A DNA stretch of 45,000 nt, from the NCBI RefSeq assembly GCF_900114585.1, contig NZ_FOTL01000013.1, forward strand, positions 1-45,000. Reading direction: 5' to 3'. Positions 11,202 to 38,835 of the stretch are shown here, one piece after another (the stretch's first letter is position 1; each line of letters opens with the position of its first letter). The translations under genes were made by a program, and so were the position numbers. The notes beneath the pieces were generated by a model, which did no database searches, had not been told where the DNA came from, and saw nothing but the letters and a program-made list of their open reading frames with translations. This DNA comes from Methanobrevibacter olleyae. Lineage in GTDB: Archaea > Methanobacteriota > Methanobacteria > Methanobacteriales > Methanobacteriaceae.

Positions 11202-11217
11202 TTTAGGTTTACCTAAA
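11202..11217. promoter_or_regulatory. DtxR-type palindrome, feo region site 1
   Basis: TTTAGG-TTTA-CCTAAA, perfect 6-bp half-sites with a 4-bp spacer. A TATA-like GTTTATACTA lies 8 bp to the right, and on the minus strand TTTATAAG near 11264 lies to its left. It could serve a plus-strand transcript or the PacL-like/ATPase operon. Confidence 0.7.
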
Positions 11218-11601
11218 GGATAAATGTTTATACTACTGTATTTTTTTAGGAATAACTTATAAATTTTTTATTTTTCAATCCCTACAAGATTTATCTCAAT
11301 TTGAAGCAATTATTTTTATATATCTATTATTATATCAATGCTACAATTTATTTATCATTTATATTGAAAATAAAGTTTAATTATTTAGTTATATCTGATT
11401 TAAATTTAGTTAATGGCAGATTTTATTTGGTTGCTCTTAAAATGTTTGCTGTTTCAATCTTATCTTAGTTTCGCATGGCTTTGAAATTTGCTTTTTTTCT
11501 TTTAATTTTATTTTTTTTAAATATTTTTATATTTTCACCTTTTTATCATATTGCTAATTTTTTCATTTTTTTAAAAAGAAATGCTATTGAATCTATTTAT
11601 C

Positions 11602-11668
11602 ATTAGGTAAACCTAAACTTTATATATTATGAAGACTAAAATAGTATTAGGTTTTAGGCATGCCTAAT
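11602..11668 (+). promoter_or_regulatory. feo promoter: palindrome - TATA - palindrome
   Basis: Palindrome ATTAGG-TAAA-CCTAAA at 11602-11617, TATA box CTTTATATAT at 11618-11627, then a perfect 14-bp palindrome TTAGGCATGCCTAA at 11654-11667, which would sit near the transcription start. The segment TATGAAGACTAAA between them is shared with the two RNA promoters at 18.65 and 19.08 kb. The DtxR/IdeR/MntR superfamily recognises TTAGG-type half-sites, so iron- or manganese-dependent repression is likely. Confidence 0.75.
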
Positions 11669-11836
11669 TAATCTATCCATGGTAGTCTTTTTATTTTCAT
11701 TTTAATTAACAATCCAAAAATATTTTTAAAAACCAATGTAATTAATTTTAAAAATATCCCCATTTTTAAAACTAAATTTTAAAAATTTTAATTAAACTAC
11801 AAATACCTCAAAATATGAAGATTATGGCGAAATAGT

Positions 11837-11852
11837 TTTAGGTGTGCCTAAA
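11837..11852 (+). promoter_or_regulatory. DtxR-type palindrome, feo region site 4
   Basis: TTTAGG-TGTG-CCTAAA. It is preceded by ATGAAGATTATGGCGAAATAG, which aligns with the ATGAAGACTAAAATAG of the upstream feo promoter, so this looks like a decayed third promoter copy without a clear TATA box. Confidence 0.65.
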
Positions 11853-12539: not shown

Positions 12540-14555
12540 ATGGCAAATCTTAAAATAGGTCTAGCAGGTAACCCTAATGTAGGTAAAACCACTTTATTCA
12601 ATACTTTAACTGGTTTGAATCAACATGTAGGTAATTGGCCTGGTAAAACCGTAGCACAAGCGAAAGGTCATTATAAACATAGTGACAATGAAGTTGAAGT
12701 AATAGATTTACCTGGTAACTATGCTTTAAGTGCTCATTCAATTGAAGAAATTGTATCAAGGGACTTTATAGTAGATGAAGACTCTGATGTAATTGTGAAC
12801 ATTATAGATGCAGCGAATATTGAAAGAAACCTGTATCTTACTGTTCAGATGATGGAGCTTGGGGCTAATTTAGTAATAGCTTTAAACATGAATAAGTATG
12901 CCCAAGATAAAGGGTATACTATTGATGCAACTAAGCTTTCTGAATTATTAGGAGTTCCTGTAGTTGAAATTGAAGCAAATAGTGATATAGGTAAAGAAGA
13001 ATTACTCAAAACTATTGAACAAGCAGCTCTAAATCCAGTGGATTCTTCTAAAAAGTTAGTTTATCATAGTGAACTTAAAGAACATCTCACTGAACTTCAA
13101 GCTGTTATAGAGGAGGATAAAAATTTACTTGATGTTCCTTCATCCTGGACTGCAATTAAATTACTTGAAAATGATGAGATTGTTGAGGAGAAAATTGAAG
13201 GGTCTTCAAAGAGAAACAATATTGTAAATGAATCTCAAAAAGTTAAAGATCACTTAAAAGGTATTTTTGGAGAAGGTAGTGAAGAAGTAATTGCAAATGC
13301 AAGATATGCATTTATTGAAGGCTTGTTAAAAGAATCTCTTACTAAACCTGCTTCTGCAAAAGCAACTATGAGTGAAAAGATTGATAGGATCCTTACAAAC
13401 AGAATATTAGGTTTACCAATATTCGTTATTATCATGTATTTAATGTTTGATATTGTTGCAAATCAAGTTGGCCCATTACAGGACTTTGTTGCAGGATTAT
13501 TTGAAATGATTGGTGAATGGATAATTGCAACACTTGGGGAGACTATGCTATCTTCATTCCTCGTAGATGGTCTTATCGGAGGAGTGGGAGGGGTACTGGA
13601 ATTTGTACCTCAAATTATGATGCTGTTTTTAATCATCAGTTTCCTTGAAGACTGTGGTTACTTAGCAAGGGCAGCATTTGTCATTGATAGAATCATGCAT
13701 AAATTTGTTGGATTACATGGTAAAGCATTTATTCCGATGCTTTTAGGATTTGGTTGTGGAATACCTGGTATTATGGCAACCAGAGCGATGGAAAATGAAA
13801 AAGATAGATTAATCACCATGATGATTATACCATTCATGTCTTGCTCTGCAAGATTACCTGTATATGTAATGTTGGTAGGTGTATTCTTTAGTGCAAATCA
13901 AGGGCTAGTTATTACATCTTTATACTGGATTGGTATTCTTGTAGCAATGATTGTTGCATTCATCTTAAGAAAAACTGTATTTAAGGAAATGGAAGCTCCA
14001 TTTGTTATGGAATTGCCAGACTATAAATTACCTACCATTAGAGGTATATTAATGCACACCCTTGAGAAGTCTTGGGGATTCATTAAAAAAGCAGGTACCA
14101 TTATTCTTCTAGCAGCTATCGTTATTTGGATTTTAAGTTACTTCCCAGCTGGAGTAGAGTATGGATCTGAACAAAGTTTAATCGGTAGCGTAGGTAAAGT
14201 AGCTGCTCCTGTATTTGCTCCTCTTGGATTTGGTGAATGGCAACCTGCTGTAGCACTTGTATTTGGTCTTGTTGCTAAAGAGGTTGTAGTAAGTACTTTC
14301 AGCTCACTCTTCGGAGTGGCCGAGGAAGGAGCCGGAATAGCCGCTGCAATGCAAGGTATTTTTACTCCACTTACAGCTTTTGTATTTATGGTATTCGTAT
14401 TGCTTTATATTCCTTGTTTTGCAGCAATTGGGGCAATCAAAGAAGAAACTGGCGGATACAAATATCCATTGATGATGTGTGGAGTTACTTTAGTTACTGC
14501 ATATATCGTTAGTTTCTTTATTTACATGGTTGGATTAGCTTTAGGATTCGGTTAA
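12540..14555 (+). CDS. feoB: Ferrous iron transporter FeoB
   Basis: Inner-membrane Fe(II) importer with an N-terminal G-domain. G1 is GNPNVGKT (residues 10-17), G2 is T37 in WPGKTVAQ, and G3 is DLPG (56-59). The G4 position reads NMNK (116-119), so the usual NXXD aspartate is replaced by lysine. A helical insert follows to about residue 290, then two Gate motifs: [19 protein letters not shown] with [16 protein letters not shown], and later [17 protein letters not shown]. Length is 671 residues, normal for archaeal FeoB. The ATG follows AAAGGTATAAAC. It lies downstream of feoA under probable DtxR-family control. Confidence 0.96.
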
Positions 14556-15472: not shown

Positions 15473-16401
15473 TAATTTTTCTCAATTTTTTTATTTTATT
15501 ATTTTTATTTATTGTTATTAATTTTCATTCAATATTTTTATTATATTTTTTATCATATTTTCAGATTTCATTATTGTTTTTTTATTTAAAAATTGGCCAT
15601 ATTACTCATTTTAATTAATGAATGCTTATATCATTATATTTTATCTTTCATTGTGTTTAACTGTAATCATATTTTGATGATTCTAATTTCAATCAATATT
15701 TATGAAAATAAGAATTATATGATATTTAAATGCTTATTTAAAGATTTTTTATCTCTTTTTCTCTAATTTTTTATTAATTTTTTATTTTTTATTTCTTCAT
15801 TAAGCTTATTTTTAAGAATAATCTTTTGTTTTATTTTATTTTTTTTATATTAATTTAATTTTTATTTTATTTTTATTTTATTTTTAAATACTTTTTTGTT
15901 TTTTTATTTTTATCTTTATTCATTGCTTTTTAAAGCAAATGAATCATTAATAAAAAGTTTTAATTTTTTATTACTGGAAAAAAGTATTACTTTTTTAATT
16001 GAATTTTATTTATTAGTAATACAAAAGAAAGATTTATAAATGTTCCTTATATAAATATTATTGTTTATTTGTTTTAAATGAGAATTACTATATTTTATTC
16101 TATTTAATTGTCAAATAAAGGAATATATCACTTTATAGTAATACTTAATCTATAATTGGATTCTTAATACGTATTACTAAATTATTACTTTAATTAGGGA
16201 TTATATTAAAAAAGTATTACTTTTTATATATTAATTATTAGAATTATTGTTGTTGATTTTTTTAAAGTAATAATCAGTATTAACTTTTAATAATAATTTA
16301 TAATAATTCATAATAATTTTAATATTTTTATTAGTATTTTTAAAAGTAAACTTTTATAGTGTGATTTATTTATTCAAAACTAAAATTGGAGGAAAAATAA
16401 T
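15473..16401. other. Long AT-rich leader/promoter region of the Ni/Co transporter genes
   Basis: No ORF with coding character was found. A two-part hairpin (TTCATT-GCTTT / AAAGC-AATGAA) lies at 15919-15943. Between 15982 and 16280 there are six GTATTAC/GTAATA elements (listed separately). Candidate TATA boxes are GATTTATAAA near 16031 and TTTTTATATATT near 16221; the second is only 1 bp from a GTATTAC element. The predicted leader is 140-350 nt. I see no cobalamin or other known riboswitch. Confidence 0.6.
15982..16283. promoter_or_regulatory. GTATTAC / GTAATAC element cluster upstream of cbiM/nikM
   Basis: GTATTAC at 15984-15990 and GTAATAC at 16016-16022 form an inverted pair with a 25-nt gap. 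GTAATAC recurs at 16138-16144. TAATACGTATTA (perfect palindrome) is at 16165-16176, GTATTAC at 16214-16220 next to a TATA box, and GTAATAA/GTATTAA at 16267-16283. The same heptamers sit upstream of hmd and of cbiQ. Confidence 0.5.
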
Positions 16402-17028
16402 ATGCATATACCTGATGGTTTTATACCTCTTGCTCAATGTGCAATCTATTATGTAATTTTAATTGTTGCATTATACTTCTCAGGAAAATGGGCAAGAGAA
16501 AATCTTGATGAAAAACGTATACCTTTACTTGCAGTTTTAGCTGCAGGTATTTTTGCAATCATGTCTATGAATATACCAATTCCATTTGGTACAAGTGGAC
16601 ACATGGTTGGTGGAGCATTAGTTGCTATAGTATTTATGGCTCCTGAAGCTGCTATTCTTGTATTTACTGCAGTATTACTTATACAAGCTTTATTCTTTGG
16701 AGATGGTGGAATTACTGCTTTAGGTGCAAATGTATTTAACATGGCTATTGTTGGAGGATTTACTGGTCTTTTCACCTACAAGGGATTAAATGGAATTCTT
16801 GGAAAATATCCTTCTGTATTTTTAGCAGCATGGCTTGCGACTTTAGTTGCAGCAGTTGTTGCAGCTATTGAAATGGCTATTGCAGGAACTTTCCCATTGA
16901 CTGTAGGAATTGCTTCTATGGCACTTTACCATGCGTTTATCGGTATAATTGAAGGAGTATTAACTGTAATTGTTATCTATGCCCTTGAAAAATTCAGACC
17001 AGATTTATTGGCATGGAACAGAGATTAG
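16402..17028 (+). CDS. cbiM: CbiM/NikM-type substrate-binding membrane subunit of a Ni/Co ECF transporter
   Basis: Integral membrane S component that binds Co(II) or Ni(II) and passes it into the cell. The N-terminus MHIPDGFIP is diagnostic: after Met removal is excluded, His2 and the free N-terminus chelate the metal. A second metal ligand, His67, lies in [11 protein letters not shown]. Six or seven hydrophobic helices follow, with [13 protein letters not shown] conserved. Length is 208 residues, typical. The ribosome binding site is TTGGAGG. The next gene encodes a PDGLE-domain protein, usual for nickel systems (NikMN), so I favour nickel over cobalt without proof. Upstream GTATTAC elements link its control to hmd. 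Confidence 0.93.
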
Positions 17029-17039
17029 ATGGTGAGAAT

Positions 17040-17333
17040 ATGGAATTAAGTCAAAGTGATAAATATTTAATTGTAATAGGAATTATATTTTGTATTGCAT
17101 TAGCAGTATTATCTCCTTATATTGCATCTGGTGATCCTGACGGGCTAGAAAAATCTGCTGAAGATGCTGCAGTTGGCGAAGATCTTGAATCTGCAGTAAT
17201 TGAGTCACCATTTCCAGACTATAGCTATGAACCTTTAGACAAATTAGGTGAAATCGGTGTTTTAATATTCGGCGGTCTGATAACACTGGCTCTTGGTTTA
17301 GGTATAGGTTATGCATTAAAAAAGTCTGAATAA
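17040..17333 (+). CDS. PDGLE-domain NikN/CbiN-like accessory subunit of the Ni/Co transporter
   Basis: 97-residue membrane protein with an N-terminal helix (YLIVIGIIFCIALAVLSPYIA), the extracytoplasmic motif DPDGLEKSAED (about residues 31-41), a PDYSY segment and a C-terminal helix LIFGGLITLALGLGIGYAL. This is the PDGLE domain architecture found with NikM/CbiM proteins, especially nickel systems. An in-frame ATG exists at 17013 inside the cbiM end, but GGTGA (17032-17036) points to ATG 17040, which I use. It starts 11 bp after cbiM and is surely co-transcribed. A strong terminator follows. Confidence 0.88.
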   Translation: MELSQSDKYLIVIGIIFCIALAVLSPYIASGDPDGLEKSAEDAAVGEDLESAVIESPFPDYSYEPLDKLGEIGVLIFGGLITLALGLGIGYALKKSE

Positions 17334-17356
17334 ACTTATATATTTCTTCATTCAAA

Positions 17357-17420
17357 ATAATCTTAGGTTAATTATATTTTAATATATTTTAATCTAAGAT
17401 TATCCTACTTTTTTTCTTTT
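17357..17420 (+). terminator. Intrinsic terminator after the NikN-like gene
   Basis: Perfect 10-bp arms ATAATCTTAG (17357-17366) and CTAAGATTAT (17394-17403), extendable inward, followed by CCTAC and a long T-tract. It separates cbiM/nikN from cbiQ. Confidence 0.75.
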
Positions 17421-17656
17421 TTATTCTTTTTATTCTATTTTTTTAATTTTGGATATTTTATTTTTCTTGTTTTTTTAATTTTAAATAATTCACTTTAAAC
17501 TTTATTAGTAATACTTTTTAGCTTTTATTTAGCTAATTAGTAATAATTATTGATTTAAATGAATAAATATTTATAATTAAAAGGGAATATTTTATATTAG
17601 AAATTTTTTTAGATTTTGTATTTTTTTTAAAAAATTTTTAATCTGGTTGGGATAAA
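17421..17656 (+). promoter_or_regulatory. cbiQ promoter region with GTAATAC element
   Basis: GTAATAC at 17508-17514 and GTAATAA at 17540-17546 form a direct repeat with 32-bp spacing. A TATA-like ATTTATAATT follows near 17568-17577, so cbiQ may have its own promoter under the same control as cbiM. The ribosome binding site is GGTTGGGATAAA. Confidence 0.4.
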
Positions 17657-18487
17657 ATGGTTATAGAACAAGTTAGAACATTAGAATTTATTTCTTCTAA
17701 AGATACTATCATTCATAATTTAGAAGGTAGGGTAAAACTTGTTGCTATTTTATTGATTATCCTTTTTACTGTTTTTTCAGATAGATTAATTGTTCCAGTT
17801 GTATTGGAAGTATTCTTATTAATTATTATGTACTTGGCGAAATTATCTTTTAAATATAGCTTTAAAAGAGTAGTTCTTCTTTTGCCATTCGGTGGTTTTA
17901 TTATAGCACTTCAACCATTTATACACTCCGGTAATATTATTTGGCAAGGCCCTTATTCTTGGTTGTTTATAACAGACACGGGTTTAAATTGGACAGTTCT
18001 TTTATTTGCTAGGTTGATTGTTTGTTTAACAGCTATTGTTATTCTGTCATCTACATCTCCTATGCAAGAAGTGGTACAATCATTTAGAAAACTTGGAATG
18101 CCAAGAGATCTAGCTATGATTTTAGCTATTATGGTAAGGTTTTTATTTATTTTTGTAGAGGAATTAAGAGATATCCACCAATCAATGGCATCTAGAAACT
18201 TTGATCCTTTTAATTCTAATATTTCTTATAAGTGGAGATTGAAACAGGTAGGTTATAGCATAGCTATGATGTTTCTAAAAGCCTATGAGAAGGGAGAGAA
18301 CATTTATCTAAGTATGGCAAGTAGATGTTTTTCAGACAATTCTAATTTATACCATGCTAAAACTATTATAGGAAAACCAGAATATATTTATTTAGCTTTT
18401 ATAATTGCCATTATCCTTCTTTTAGAATTAATTGTATTGTTTTATTCTAATGATTTAGCTTACTTTGGCATTTCTTTATCTTTATAG
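17657..18487 (+). CDS. cbiQ: CbiQ/NikQ-type transmembrane (EcfT) component of a Ni/Co ECF transporter
   Basis: T component that couples the S component to ATPase subunits. The 276-residue protein has 5-6 hydrophobic helices and, in the cytoplasmic loops, the two coupling motifs that contact the ATPases: SMASRNFD (about residues 177-184) and SMASRCFS (about 215-222), both with the Ala-X-Arg core. The N-terminal KDTIIHNLEGRVKLVAILLI is typical of CbiQ. It is 323 bp behind the NikN-like gene, with a terminator and a promoter between. A CbiO/NikO ATPase gene would normally follow but none is present; instead the tandem RNA units begin about 130 bp downstream. Confidence 0.92.
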   Translation: MVIEQVRTLEFISSKDTIIHNLEGRVKLVAILLIILFTVFSDRLIVPVVLEVFLLIIMYLAKLSFKYSFKRVVLLLPFGGFIIALQPFIHSGNIIWQGPYSWLFITDTGLNWTVLLFARLIVCLTAIVILSSTSPMQEVVQSFRKLGMPRDLAMILAIMVRFLFIFVEELRDIHQSMASRNFDPFNSNISYKWRLKQVGYSIAMMFLKAYEKGENIYLSMASRCFSDNSNLYHAKTIIGKPEYIYLAFIIAIILLLELIVLFYSNDLAYFGISLSL

Positions 18488-18613: not shown

Positions 18614-18696
18614 TTTAGGTATGCCTAAAAATTTAGAAAGATTTATATACTATGAAGGTCAAATTATAATTAACAATAAATTTAGGTAAACCTAAA
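18614..18696 (+). promoter_or_regulatory. Promoter of RNA unit 1: DtxR-type palindrome - TATA - palindrome
   Basis: TTTAGG-TATG-CCTAAA (18614-18629), archaeal TATA box ATTTATATAC (18641-18650) preceded by a purine-rich GAAAG, then TTTAGG-TAAA-CCTAAA (18681-18696). Palindrome centres are 67 bp apart. The expected start is near 18670, so the second palindrome lies at about +10 to +26. Confidence 0.8.
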
Positions 18697-19030
18697 TATT
18701 ATTGTTTCTTTAAAAATCTTAATTATGTTGTTTATTAGTTCAGTTAATAGTGGTCTAAAGTTTTTATAAATAACTATATTATTTGATCTTCCTCCCTTTC
18801 TTTAGATTATTGTTAACTTCTAAAATGATTTTCACAAAGAGGCATCATTTTCTTTTGCAGATTATGATTCTTTTTATGAAATTCATTGTTGAATTAATAA
18901 GGACATTTTATGATTATTAAGGACCATTTTAAAAAATAACTTAATGTTATTTAGCAATCTCCAAAGTTGGTACATAGTATTCTTTAATCCCAGGTTTGCT
19001 ATGTACTGCCTCTTATTTTATTATTTTTTT
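18670..19030 (+). ncRNA. Putative iron-regulated small RNA 1 (tandem pair)
   Basis: Predicted transcript of about 350 nt with no ORF above a few codons. Elements in order: a C-rich segment CTTCCTCCC (18788-18796); the core CATCATTTTCTTTTGCA (18843-18859), shared with unit 2; a hairpin AAATAAC-TTAAT-GTTATTT (18934-18952); an unpaired CTCCAAAGTTGG (18959-18970); and a terminator hairpin (GTACATAG 18970-18977 with CTATGTAC 18999-19006) followed by T-rich DNA. CUCC and CCUCCC can pair with Shine-Dalgarno sequences. A 9-codon ORF at 18910-18939 (MIIKDHFKK) has an AAGGA site but no counterpart in unit 2. The promoter is of the metal-repressed type. Boundaries are inferred. Confidence 0.65.
18970..19030 (+). 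terminator. Terminator hairpin of RNA unit 1
   Basis: 8-bp stem GTACATAG/CTATGTAC with a 21-nt loop, followed by TGCCTCTTATTTTATTATTTTTTT. Confidence 0.55.
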
Positions 19031-19048
19031 ATATATATTTTTAAATAT

Positions 19049-19131
19049 TTTAGGTATGCCTAAAAATTTAGAAAGATTTATATACTATGAAGACTAAATT
19101 ATAATTAACAATAAATTTAGGTAAACCTAAA
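19049..19131 (+). promoter_or_regulatory. Promoter of RNA unit 2: DtxR-type palindrome - TATA - palindrome
   Basis: TTTAGG-TATG-CCTAAA (19049-19064), TATA box ATTTATATAC (19076-19085), TTTAGG-TAAA-CCTAAA (19116-19131). Centre spacing is 67 bp, as in unit 1. The whole 83-bp block differs from unit 1 at only about two positions. Expected start is near 19105. Confidence 0.8.
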
Positions 19132-19460
19132 TTATTGTGTTATTGAATAAAAATCTGTAATAATCTTATTAATGATAAGTTCTTAAATTCAAGTTAAATT
19201 CTAGATAGTATTAGTTTAATCATAAGAATCTAAATTCCTTGAATTTAGAATTTATTATTAATTGTTTAGTTAATGAATTTTACTTTAAACACACATCATT
19301 TTCTTCTGCATATAATCGCTTTTAAAAAGTAAAATTTAGGGTCCAACTAACAAAGGTTATACTTAAATCTTCAAATACTAGTAAATAATATTTGGTTTAT
19401 TATTTACCTCAACCTCCAAAGTTAGTTCATAGCATTGCTATGAATTTTCTTTTCTTTTTT
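19105..19460 (+). ncRNA. Putative iron-regulated small RNA 2 (tandem pair)
   Basis: Predicted transcript of about 345 nt, paralogous to unit 1 and offset by 435 bp. Elements: a 9-bp hairpin TCTAAATTC-CTT-GAATTTAGA (19229-19249); the shared core CATCATTTTCTTCTGCA (19294-19310); a perfect 10-bp hairpin GTAAATAATA / TATTATTTAC (19381-19407); an unpaired CTCAACCTCCAAAGTTAG (19408-19425); and a terminator hairpin TTCATAG-CATTG-CTATGAA (19426-19444) with a T-tract. The hairpin before CTCCAAAG differs in sequence from unit 1 but keeps the shape. No ORF of note is present and none is shared with unit 1. Function by base-pairing is inference. Confidence 0.65.
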
Positions 19461-19462
19461 TA
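19426..19462 (+). terminator. Terminator hairpin of RNA unit 2
   Basis: 7-bp stem TTCATAG/CTATGAA with a 5-nt loop, followed by TTTTCTTTTCTTTTTTTA. Confidence 0.7.
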
Positions 19463-19531
19463 TTTATTTTTAGCATGTTTTATTATTCTATTTTATATTC
19501 TATATATCTCTGATTTAATTGTTTTATTTTT

Positions 19532-20854
19532 TTAATAAATTCTTATACCTTTATCCTTTAGAATTAGCGCTAGATAAATAAAGCTTGCTATAAAAAAGTA
19601 GAATAAAACTTGTATGTCTAATATTCCAGTTTCTACTCCTAAAATAGAATAGGTTAAAATTAAGCTGTATAGAACAATATAAAATGAGTCTTTTGTAATT
19701 TTAATGATCTTATATCCAGTTCCTAATATAAATCCCAGTAGAGACATTTCTACAACTACACCGATTTTACCAAAATCTACAATCATCTGACCTAATAGTG
19801 TAGGAGTTACAGTTACCTCTGTTCTCCAAGCTATTAATTTCCCCACTAACATTCTAGGTCCAAGAGGGCTTCCAGGCATTGAACTTGCTATCATTTTACC
19901 TTTTAAAAGCCCAAAGTTTCCAGAGATTTCATTTAATAAGTTTAAAACATGCATTGTAAAGTTTGCTCTAGATTCTAAAGTAGAAAAAGGATTTGTATTT
20001 GAACTAATTGCAAGTTCATTTAAAGATCTTAGATAACCAATTCCTATAATTGCTCCAACACCTAATAGTGTAGCTATAATCACTTCCCAAACAGATAATA
20101 TCCTAGCATAATAAGCAATTATAACCATCATAAGCAAAATAGCAATAATCGGTGTTCTATATTGTAGTGTAAGGACAGTTATAATTCCTATACTTGTTAA
20201 AACTAAAAATCTAAATCTTGCTTGGCTGCGACTAATTTCATTATTTTTAAATTGATTTAAATAGTGTGATGCGATTAGGCCAATTCCAGGAATTATTAAA
20301 AAAACAGGCATTGTAAGTGCTGGCTTAAGGGAGTATCTTAAAGAGGATTTTAATATTGGCAATCCTCCAACAGATGCAATGCTTATAAATAAAAATATAA
20401 TTCCAATTAAACTAAGACAAAAACCAATTGAATATATGTCTTTTGTGTTGAATAATGGAATACTATTGTCATTATCTCTGTTTTTACTGTCTTCAGTGTT
20501 TTGATTATTTAAAATAAATCTTGGAAATATTATTGATCCAATAAAAAAACTAATAAATGCAATAACTATGGTATTTTGCAAATCTTTTGATATAGGGTCT
20601 GTAGCAAGAAGTAAAAAAAGAGTAAATGTAAATAAAACAATAAGAGGTGAAAATAATTCTTCTTTTAATATTTTACTTTTATCTACAAATGATAAAAATT
20701 TTTCACTTGGATATAATCTCTTAAAATAGCTATTAATCCATTTATTTTCAATAAATCCAAGTATTTTGAATATGCTTGTAAATAAAAATGAGTTTCTAAG
20801 TGTATTTTCTATATTTCTAGTTATTGTGCTAATAATAGAATATATCAAGCTCAT
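19532..20854 (-). CDS. Polytopic membrane protein, oligosaccharide repeat unit polymerase-like
   Basis: 440 residues with about 11-12 hydrophobic helices, a short basic N-terminus and a long external loop before the last helices. The loop carries NFTMHVLNLLNEISGNFGLLKGKMIASSMPGSPLGPRMLVGK and WRTEVTVTPTLLGQMIVDFG, a pattern (large loop with conserved Arg/Pro/Gly, then FGKIG-V-E) typical of Wzy-like O-antigen or archaeal surface-polysaccharide polymerases. The likely role is joining oligosaccharide units outside the membrane for pseudomurein-associated or surface glycans. Assignment is by topology and pattern only. The ATG follows AAAGTGAAAAT. It is last of a minus-strand group with 21020-21811 and the ferredoxin. 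Confidence 0.65.
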   Translation of the reverse strand: MSLIYSIISTITRNIENTLRNSFLFTSIFKILGFIENKWINSYFKRLYPSEKFLSFVDKSKILKEELFSPLIVLFTFTLFLLLATDPISKDLQNTIVIAFISFFIGSIIFPRFILNNQNTEDSKNRDNDNSIPLFNTKDIYSIGFCLSLIGIIFLFISIASVGGLPILKSSLRYSLKPALTMPVFLIIPGIGLIASHYLNQFKNNEISRSQARFRFLVLTSIGIITVLTLQYRTPIIAILLMMVIIAYYARILSVWEVIIATLLGVGAIIGIGYLRSLNELAISSNTNPFSTLESRANFTMHVLNLLNEISGNFGLLKGKMIASSMPGSPLGPRMLVGKLIAWRTEVTVTPTLLGQMIVDFGKIGVVVEMSLLGFILGTGYKIIKITKDSFYIVLYSLILTYSILGVETGILDIQVLFYFFIASFIYLALILKDKGIRIY

Positions 20855-38025: not shown

Positions 38026-38835
38026 ATGAAATTTGGATTTATAGGTTTTGGTGAAGTATCCTACACTTTATCAAAAATATTATTATCTAAAGGTTTTGAA
38101 GTTTTAACTTCAACTGAAGGTAGGTCTAGTAAAACAAAAGAGTTAGCTAATGCACTTGATATAACTGTTCTAGATAATTTTGAAGAGGTAGCTAATAATT
38201 CAGATATTTTAATTTCAGCTAACACTCCTCAAAGTGCTTTAGCTATTGCTTTAAAATATGGTTCATTAACAAATGGAATATTTTTAGATTTTAATAATAT
38301 ATCCCCAAACACTGCAAAACAAATTGGAAATTATCTTGGTGATGAGCATTTTATTGATTCAGCTATTATGGGAAAAGTAAAATCAGAGGAATTAAACATA
38401 TTTTTTTCAGGTAAACGTGCTCAAGAACTTGCAGATGTTATTGAAAGGGTTAGAACTAAACCTCCACATAATGATAATGTAAAAATAAATATTAAAGTTG
38501 TTAGTGAGGAAATAGGGGATGTTTCTAAATTAAAAACTCTTAGAAGCTCTTATACAAAAGGAGTTTCAGCACTTCTTATAGAAACATTTGAAACAGCTCA
38601 AAAATTAGGATTAAGTGAAGATTTATGGCAAATATTATCCTTAACTGAAAATAGAGATTTTGAAACCTCTGCTAAGTCACGTATATCTAGCTCATATAAT
38701 TCATCTAAACGTAAATATGAAGAGCTAATAGAAGTTTTAGAATTTTTAGATGACGTTGATGAGAGAAGAAAAACTAAGATTATGGCTTTAGCTACTAAAG
38801 AAAAATTTGAAAAATTAAAAAATAGAGAAAAATAA
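38026..38835 (+). CDS. NAD(P)-binding dehydrogenase-like protein with DUF1932 C-terminus
   Basis: 269 residues in two domains. The N-terminal Rossmann fold begins MKFGFIGFGEVSYTLSKILLSKGFEV with GXGXXS/A-type nucleotide binding, and continues LISANTPQSALAIAL and FLDFNNISPNTAKQIG as in 6-phosphogluconate/3-hydroxyisobutyrate dehydrogenases. The C-terminal helical domain (KLKTLRSSYTKGVSALLIETFETAQKLG) is the DUF1932 type. The substrate is unknown. GGTGATGGT precedes the ATG. It stands alone; the convergent nucleotidyltransferase gene ends 108 bp downstream. Confidence 0.85.
   Translation: MKFGFIGFGEVSYTLSKILLSKGFEVLTSTEGRSSKTKELANALDITVLDNFEEVANNSDILISANTPQSALAIALKYGSLTNGIFLDFNNISPNTAKQIGNYLGDEHFIDSAIMGKVKSEELNIFFSGKRAQELADVIERVRTKPPHNDNVKINIKVVSEEIGDVSKLKTLRSSYTKGVSALLIETFETAQKLGLSEDLWQILSLTENRDFETSAKSRISSSYNSSKRKYEELIEVLEFLDDVDERRKTKIMALATKEKFEKLKNREK

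Follow-up and report, generated by a model that had tools for sequence, protein, structure and literature searches.

The DNA analysed here, referred to as the window, comprises 45,000 nucleotides of Methanobrevibacter olleyae (contig NZ_FOTL01000013.1, positions 1 to 45,000). Two tandem noncoding units, RNA1 and RNA2, lie in it, with cbiQ on one side and on the other a gene of the opposite strand (19532-20854). The cbiMNQ genes (16402-18487) directly precede these units, and feoB is located at 12540-14555. RNA1 and RNA2 have in common a 93-nt promoter block, 92% of which is shared, as well as three shorter blocks, and each unit ends in a hairpin followed by a T-run. No open reading frame is kept among the orthologues of either unit, as it would be in a translated small gene. 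An Rfam search of the window returned two tRNAs only; RNA1 and RNA2 had no match above the gathering score, and the best weak match (E 0.51) was far under its cut-off. The features of the locus are collected in Table 1.

Table 1. Features of the RNA1/RNA2 locus and related palindromes (positions in the window)
Feature	Position	Strand	Remark
RNA1 upstream operator TTTAGGTATGCCTAAA, DtxR/IdeR-like palindrome	18614-18629	+	in genus, kept 67 nt from partner
RNA1 TATA box TTTATATA	18642-18649	+	conserved in RNA1 and RNA2 alignments
RNA1 transcript	about 18672-19030	+	both ends predicted: start about 30 nt past TATA, end in T-rich run; z -7.6
RNA1 downstream operator TTTAGGTAAACCTAAA	18681-18696	+	also apical part of 5' terminal hairpin
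RNA1 loop hairpin, arms 18743-18760 and 18800-18817	18743-18817	+	double changes at 6 pairs
RNA1 anti-Shine-Dalgarno loop segment CTTCCTCCC	18788-18796	+	apical loop of long hairpin (predicted)
Motif common to RNA1 and RNA2, RNA1 copy CATCATTTTCTTTTGCA	18843-18859	+	conservation equal to seeds
RNA1 conserved segment GGACCATTTTA, genus form GAACCATTTTA	18921-18931	+	complement of fdhA start codon region
RNA1 hairpin AAATAAC/GTTATTT preceding seed	18934-18952	+	
RNA1 seed GCAATCTCCAAAG	18954-18966	+	predicted unpaired
RNA1 3' hairpin GTACATAGTA/TGCTATGTAC, then T-rich end	18970-19006	+	
RNA2 upstream operator	19049-19064	+	
RNA2 TATA box	19077-19084	+	
RNA2 transcript	about 19107-19465	+	ends predicted; z -5.4
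RNA2 downstream operator	19116-19131	+	
Motif common to RNA1 and RNA2, RNA2 copy ACACATCATTTTCTTCTGCA	19291-19310	+	
RNA2 hairpin preceding seed	19381-19407	+	
RNA2 seed CTCAACCTCCAAAG	19408-19421	+	predicted unpaired
RNA2 3' hairpin TTCATAGCA/TGCTATGAA, then T-rich end	19426-19444	+	
Same palindrome at 11202, 11602, 11653 and 11837	11202-11852	.	upstream of feoB region

In each unit, the TATA box is flanked by two DtxR/IdeR-like palindromes 67 nt apart, and the pairing of boxes is kept across the genus. The palindrome, TTTAGGTnnnCCTAAA, which we take to resemble the DtxR/IdeR boxes of bacteria, occurs 22 times in the window where 3.6 occurrences would be expected (up to two mismatches, both strands), and these cluster at the two RNAs and upstream of feoB. 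Because the same palindrome stands upstream of the feoB region, the operator can be tied to iron; with two palindromes per RNA, in common with the feo region, both promoters appear to carry the operator of an iron-responsive repressor, as expected of iron-sparing small RNAs (sRNAs). Two DtxR-family proteins (PF02742) are encoded in the genome. The dtxR orthologue of related families has this palindrome across its start codon, as expected of dtxR's own operator and consistent with autoregulation. In Methanococcus voltae, iron-loaded DtxR has been proposed as a repressor of feoAB (PMC8516115). Taken with the boxes, this proposal makes repression of RNA1 and RNA2 by iron the natural reading of the promoters.

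Boxes of this kind were also seen elsewhere. Double-box promoters in other genera drive other genes, including an apparent archaeal histone-fold protein gene (L394 in G034, L389 in G028). Two boxes lie upstream of an apparent F420-reducing hydrogenase large subunit gene (L014:1403-1514 = G000:C27:7587-7698), and the hydrogenase may be under direct DtxR control. Two LCM-like methyltransferase genes (L001, L002) have boxes in their promoters, and boxes also lie near an AraC-type regulator (L010); all of these are unexplained members of the regulon. In G014 (L391, L399), tiny Cys-containing proteins, MGIRGGICGKKQIEDKRKEKEKREK and MAGCCCANCKNPNCKCKKQKKNSKE, follow straight after double DtxR-like boxes and are possibly small metal-related proteins. 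A third box-driven locus, in which ATATCTCCAAATAAAG is followed by a hairpin (L011:1500-1760; G000:C16 about 38511-38771), is a possible third RNA of the family; on its opposite strand a tiny protein (M.GRSKSGICGKKQIKP...) starts beside the same boxes.

Both RNAs are predicted to fold far more stably than dinucleotide shuffles (z scores in Table 1), and compensatory double changes were found at 6 of the 19 pairs of the RNA1 loop hairpin and 3 of the 17 pairs of the RNA1 3' domain. The original prediction had named three anti-Shine-Dalgarno (anti-SD) segments, CTTCCTCCC, CTCCAAAG (18959-18966) and ACCTCCAAAG (19412-19421), all of which are present at these positions. Its view that the final segments are exposed between two hairpins, in what would be two regulatory RNAs, agrees with the modelled folds and with conservation: minimum-energy and centroid structures alike leave both CTCCAAA segments unpaired between two hairpins and place CTTCCTCCC in the loop that caps a long hairpin. 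RNA1 and RNA2 are thereby predicted to be structured noncoding RNAs with a conserved unpaired seed, as iron-sparing sRNAs are. The locus might instead represent a cis-acting leader, a small-protein gene or an untranscribed repeat rather than trans-acting RNAs. Tandem duplication and the position of operators within the transcribed region would suit such a reading, but the lack of a conserved open reading frame, the next gene being on the other strand, the hairpin and T-run ends, and the strong folding with covariation make it very improbable.

Within the genus, RNA1 and RNA2 are present in most genomes. A DNA search recovered the RNA1 unit over most of its length in 11 other genomes, and RNA2-type or partial copies in more. 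In the alignments, conservation is concentrated at the boxes, at the TATA box, in the stems and in four unpaired segments, namely CTTCCTCCC(TTT) in the RNA1 loop, ACCATTTTA in RNA1, ACACATCATTTTCTTCTGC in both RNAs, and CAATCTCCAAA (RNA1) or CTCAACCTCCAAA (RNA2). In particular, CAATCTCCAAA is invariant in 14 of 14 RNA1 orthologues and 14 of 15 RNA2 orthologues retain CTCAA(C/T)CTCCAAA, while the final G of CTCCAAAG varies. All 12 RNA1s that have the loop hairpin, which G006 and G013 lack, retain CTTCCTCCC or TCCTCC. As judged from these alignments, conservation of the anti-SD segments is far beyond chance. A further motif, ACACATCATTTTCTTCTGC...AATCGCTCTC, occurs in both RNAs (common motif in Table 1) and equals the seeds in conservation; its complement holds AAAATGATG, yet no target stands out among the sampled gene starts. 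No motif of the RNA1/RNA2 type was found in other genera. On the sequence evidence, RNA1 and RNA2 represent a real and conserved family of RNAs with DtxR boxes and exposed anti-SD seeds that had not been catalogued before.

Loci near cbiQ in other Methanobrevibacter species hold a shorter RNA, which has the box-TATA-box promoter of RNA1 and RNA2 and the arrangement hairpin-ACAATCTCCAAAA-hairpin. A covariance model search found copies of this short form in 62 of 139 genomes of the family, all in the sister genus g5, with one to five per genome; the model does not score the RNA1/RNA2 form. One carrier, G076, is presumably M. smithii PS, while G011, which belongs to the genus of RNA1 and RNA2, is taken to be M. 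ruminantium M1. The 44 distinct copies have a promoter spacing of 68-73 nt and show almost no variation in CTCCAAA. The segment common to both forms is CTCCAAA between two hairpins; thus, across genera, no part of the family is better conserved than the segment that the original prediction picked out. This bears on whether the RNAs are general anti-SD decoys that damp translation broadly under stress with no specific mRNAs. The C-rich CCUCC would match any GGAGG Shine-Dalgarno (SD) sequence, and many genes do pair moderately; however, the cross-genus conserved part is CUCCAAA with specific flanks rather than the CCUCC core, and the sister-genus copies carry UCUCC, a poorer general anti-SD, so that we regard decoys as improbable.

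The sister-genus copies also bear on the metal. RNA1 and RNA2 could answer to manganese, cobalt or nickel instead of iron and serve the homeostasis of that metal. cbiMNQ adjoins the units, FdhA, Mvh and HypC (see below) are also tied to W/Mo/Ni enzymes, and the DtxR family includes manganese sensors (PMC9294342), which counts for this alternative. Against it, the same palindromes stand upstream of the feoB region, and the short-form copies examined adjoin feoAB (identified by eye) and do not directly follow cbi genes. Overall, control by another metal appears unlikely.

For target prediction, duplex energies were computed between five unpaired RNA segments and 674 gene starts, drawn from 40 stretches (38% of the genome) and the window; proteins were classed as Fe-S by their cysteine motifs. 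Strong pairings over these starts were no more numerous than with flank-shuffled segments. For the RNA1 seed, one of the five segments tested, Fe-S proteins ranked better (p 3e-4, or 0.003 once SD strength and G content are corrected for) and supplied four of the top 10 against 0.6 expected. Over the same 674 starts, the RNA2 seed and the RNA1 loop alone gave no significant Fe-S enrichment (loop p 0.11), nor did the shared motif or GACCATTTTA when each was taken alone. In the sister-genus genome G022, searched with its own seed against 791 starts, Fe-S proteins were again four of the top 10 against 0.6 expected (p 0.0018), with a whole-rank p of 0.13 after correction; the best pairings there were with an FdhA-like protein, UPF0147, FdhA, FwdF, methanogenesis marker 9 and a HypC-like protein. 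Across 312 reciprocal best ortholog pairs, 25 of them Fe-S proteins, the best four combined energies belong to FdhA-like, FwdF, MvhB and FdhA, all Fe-S (p 3e-5), and the mean of the top three cross-genus energies was matched by 1 of 100 flank-shuffled seed sets. Short ribosome-binding words such as AAAGGAG are likewise conserved between the two genera. NCBIfam and Pfam models confirm FwdF, Fdh-alpha, the molybdopterin Fe4S4 protein, the formate transporter and TfrB; for the MvhB candidate, the match is to the VhuB polyferredoxin model and falls under that model's cut-off. A whole-genome search with the extended seed complement TTTGGAGRTTG gave perfect matches only at the RNAs themselves, and one-mismatch counts equalled those of the reversed control.

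The enrichment of Fe-S genes among the top pairings that had been expected at the outset is seen with the RNA1 seed, in G022 and in the cross-genus top four, and not with the RNA2 seed or the RNA1 loop. As for superiority over shuffled controls, raw counts of strong pairings are at chance, whereas the top targets, by what they are and how well they are conserved, go beyond the controls. The targets originally proposed lay in the window, and the better candidates, fdhA-like, fwdF, fdhA, mvhB and fdhC, are all outside it. The complementarities to tfs and porC are as described; that to TTGGAGG before cbiM also holds, one base lower than given, at 16386-16392. However, ranks were mediocre for cbiM (39, RNA2 seed), tfs (110) and hmd (91 of 674), and at cbiM, rejected as a target, the SD is conserved and the seed-matching flank is not. 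Fumarase, ranked 573-609 of 674 and without an SD in its upstream region, is not borne out. The Por genes stand higher, with porC 10th for the RNA1 loop and porB 8th for the RNA2 seed of 674, though the loop itself shows no Fe-S enrichment. The dtxR mRNA has a 10-nt match, TTTGGAGGTT, to the RNA2 seed (L357:1280-1310) in this genome only, its TTT not being conserved in relatives, and feedback on dtxR is therefore not supported.

At fwdF, TTTTGGAGG is the form kept in the genus and TTTTGGAGATT the form in G022, whose seed is AATCTCCAAAA; one or the other is present in every Methanobacteriaceae genome in which the start was read, and in sister families GAGGAGG or AAGGAGG stands there instead. 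Since this site extends over the end of the upstream open reading frame, coding constraint may conserve it. All 13 copies of the FdhA-like gene that were found have TTGGAGA or a longer match, which in G007 reaches 12 nt against that genome's own RNA1, and fdhC keeps GAGGTTGAG, the complement of CTCAACCTC in RNA2, in most of the genus. No such match was found in neighbouring genes of the same operons. Some genomes in which no such RNA was detected, incomplete assemblies among them, still retain motifs: in G019 and G021 it is TTTTGGAGG at fwdF, in G014 and G017 those of fdhC and fdhA. The motifs may thus predate the RNAs or be independent of them, which weakens the case for co-evolution.

At fdhA, two conserved sites of RNA1 match the ribosome-binding site and the start codon in the correct order. 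fdhA reads TGGAGATTATAAAATGGTT in the genus, and RNA1 has AACCATTTTA, a hairpin and AATCTCCA, an order that would allow pairing on either side of a looped-out hairpin. GGAGATT together with AAAATGGT occurs at fdhA and at no other of the 674 and 791 starts sampled. With the hairpin removed, fdhA ranked 3rd of 674 for the genus consensus RNA and 10th for the RNA of this genome. An equally good two-site match anywhere was given by 1 of 40 shuffled RNAs, a figure to be read with the two-site match having been noticed after the fact.

What the sequence shows is the RNA units with their conservation, folds, boxes and complementarities; from these we infer transcription, the regulator, the iron signal and repression. 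RNA1 and RNA2 are probably DtxR-controlled, trans-acting iron-sparing sRNAs that repress translation of Fe-S and formate/CO2-reduction genes. An iron-loaded regulator of the DtxR/IdeR type would repress both, and iron shortage would release them. The unpaired CTCCAAA seeds, together with the CTTCCTCCC loop of RNA1, would then pair with the SD region of a few mRNAs for iron-sulfur and formate- or CO2-reducing enzymes (fdhA-like, fwdF, fdhA, mvhB and probably fdhC), which would block the 30S subunit and save iron. fdhA would probably be bound at two sites, with AAUCUCCA of RNA1 on the SD, AACCAUUUUA across the start codon and the hairpin between them looped out. A metal-regulated RNA could, however, use CTCCAAA to bind a protein or titrate something else, such as an Sm-like protein or another RNA, the SD match being a by-product of a C-rich unpaired patch. 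Strong-pairing counts equal to shuffled controls fit this alternative, as does the equal conservation of ACACATCATTTTCTTCTGC, which has no evident mRNA partner; the wholly Fe-S composition of the cross-genus top targets and the two-site match to fdhA do not, and we give it a small but real chance. Whether the iron-sparing sRNAs form an archaeal regulon, that is, a multicopy DtxR-controlled family in host-associated Methanobrevibacter that shuts off the translation of components of formate dehydrogenase and formylmethanofuran dehydrogenase and so adjusts the entry steps of methanogenesis to iron supply, is in our judgement evenly balanced. Such a regulon, if true, would connect the supply of iron with formate use and CO2 reduction in the principal methanogens of rumen and human gut, and it offers named RNA-mRNA pairs in completely sequenced strains (G076, G011).

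Several known sRNAs resemble RNA1 and RNA2. In the literature searched, no iron-responsive sRNA has been reported for archaea; archaea are absent from a 2022 review of metal-responsive regulatory RNAs, which gives none for iron-sensing DtxR, though MrsI qualifies. The archaeal sRNA162 of Methanosarcina mazei is likewise trans-acting and masks a ribosome-binding site, but it concerns methylamine use rather than metals, and the parts of its description consulted report no DtxR boxes (PMC3510493, PMC3600222). RyhB, PrrF1/2 and FsrA share the logic of metal-sensor-controlled RNAs with convergent targets; PrrF1/2 are a pair, like RNA1 and RNA2, and FsrA places a C-rich motif on the SD. They differ in belonging to the Fur regulon and in using bacterial chaperones, whereas RNA1 and RNA2 have no Rfam match. 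IsrR of Staphylococcus aureus is iron-repressed and impairs translation through C-rich segments on the SD and start codon of iron-sulfur enzyme mRNAs, including fdhA (PMC9410917). It is, however, bacterial and Fur-controlled, unlike RNA1 and RNA2 with their archaeal promoters, DtxR-type boxes around the TATA box and tandem or multicopy occurrence; a check of sequence relation through Rfam gave no match. MrsI of Mycobacterium tuberculosis has a box for IdeR, a DtxR-family regulator, in its promoter, a short seed and iron-sparing targets (PMC8628891), and RNA1 and RNA2 likewise have DtxR-family boxes in their promoters. MrsI, likened here by description, is a single bacterial RNA of about 100 nt, while RNA1 and RNA2 are longer, duplicated and of the box-TATA-box type. 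By analogy, RNA1 and RNA2 would work like IsrR, FsrA and MrsI, a likeness of action and not evidence of membership in any family tested. If confirmed, they would be an archaeal counterpart of the RNAs with which bacteria save iron under starvation. Iron-sparing sRNAs are a recurrent bacterial solution, and a conserved archaeal family, if true, would follow the same logic with archaeal promoters and a different regulator.
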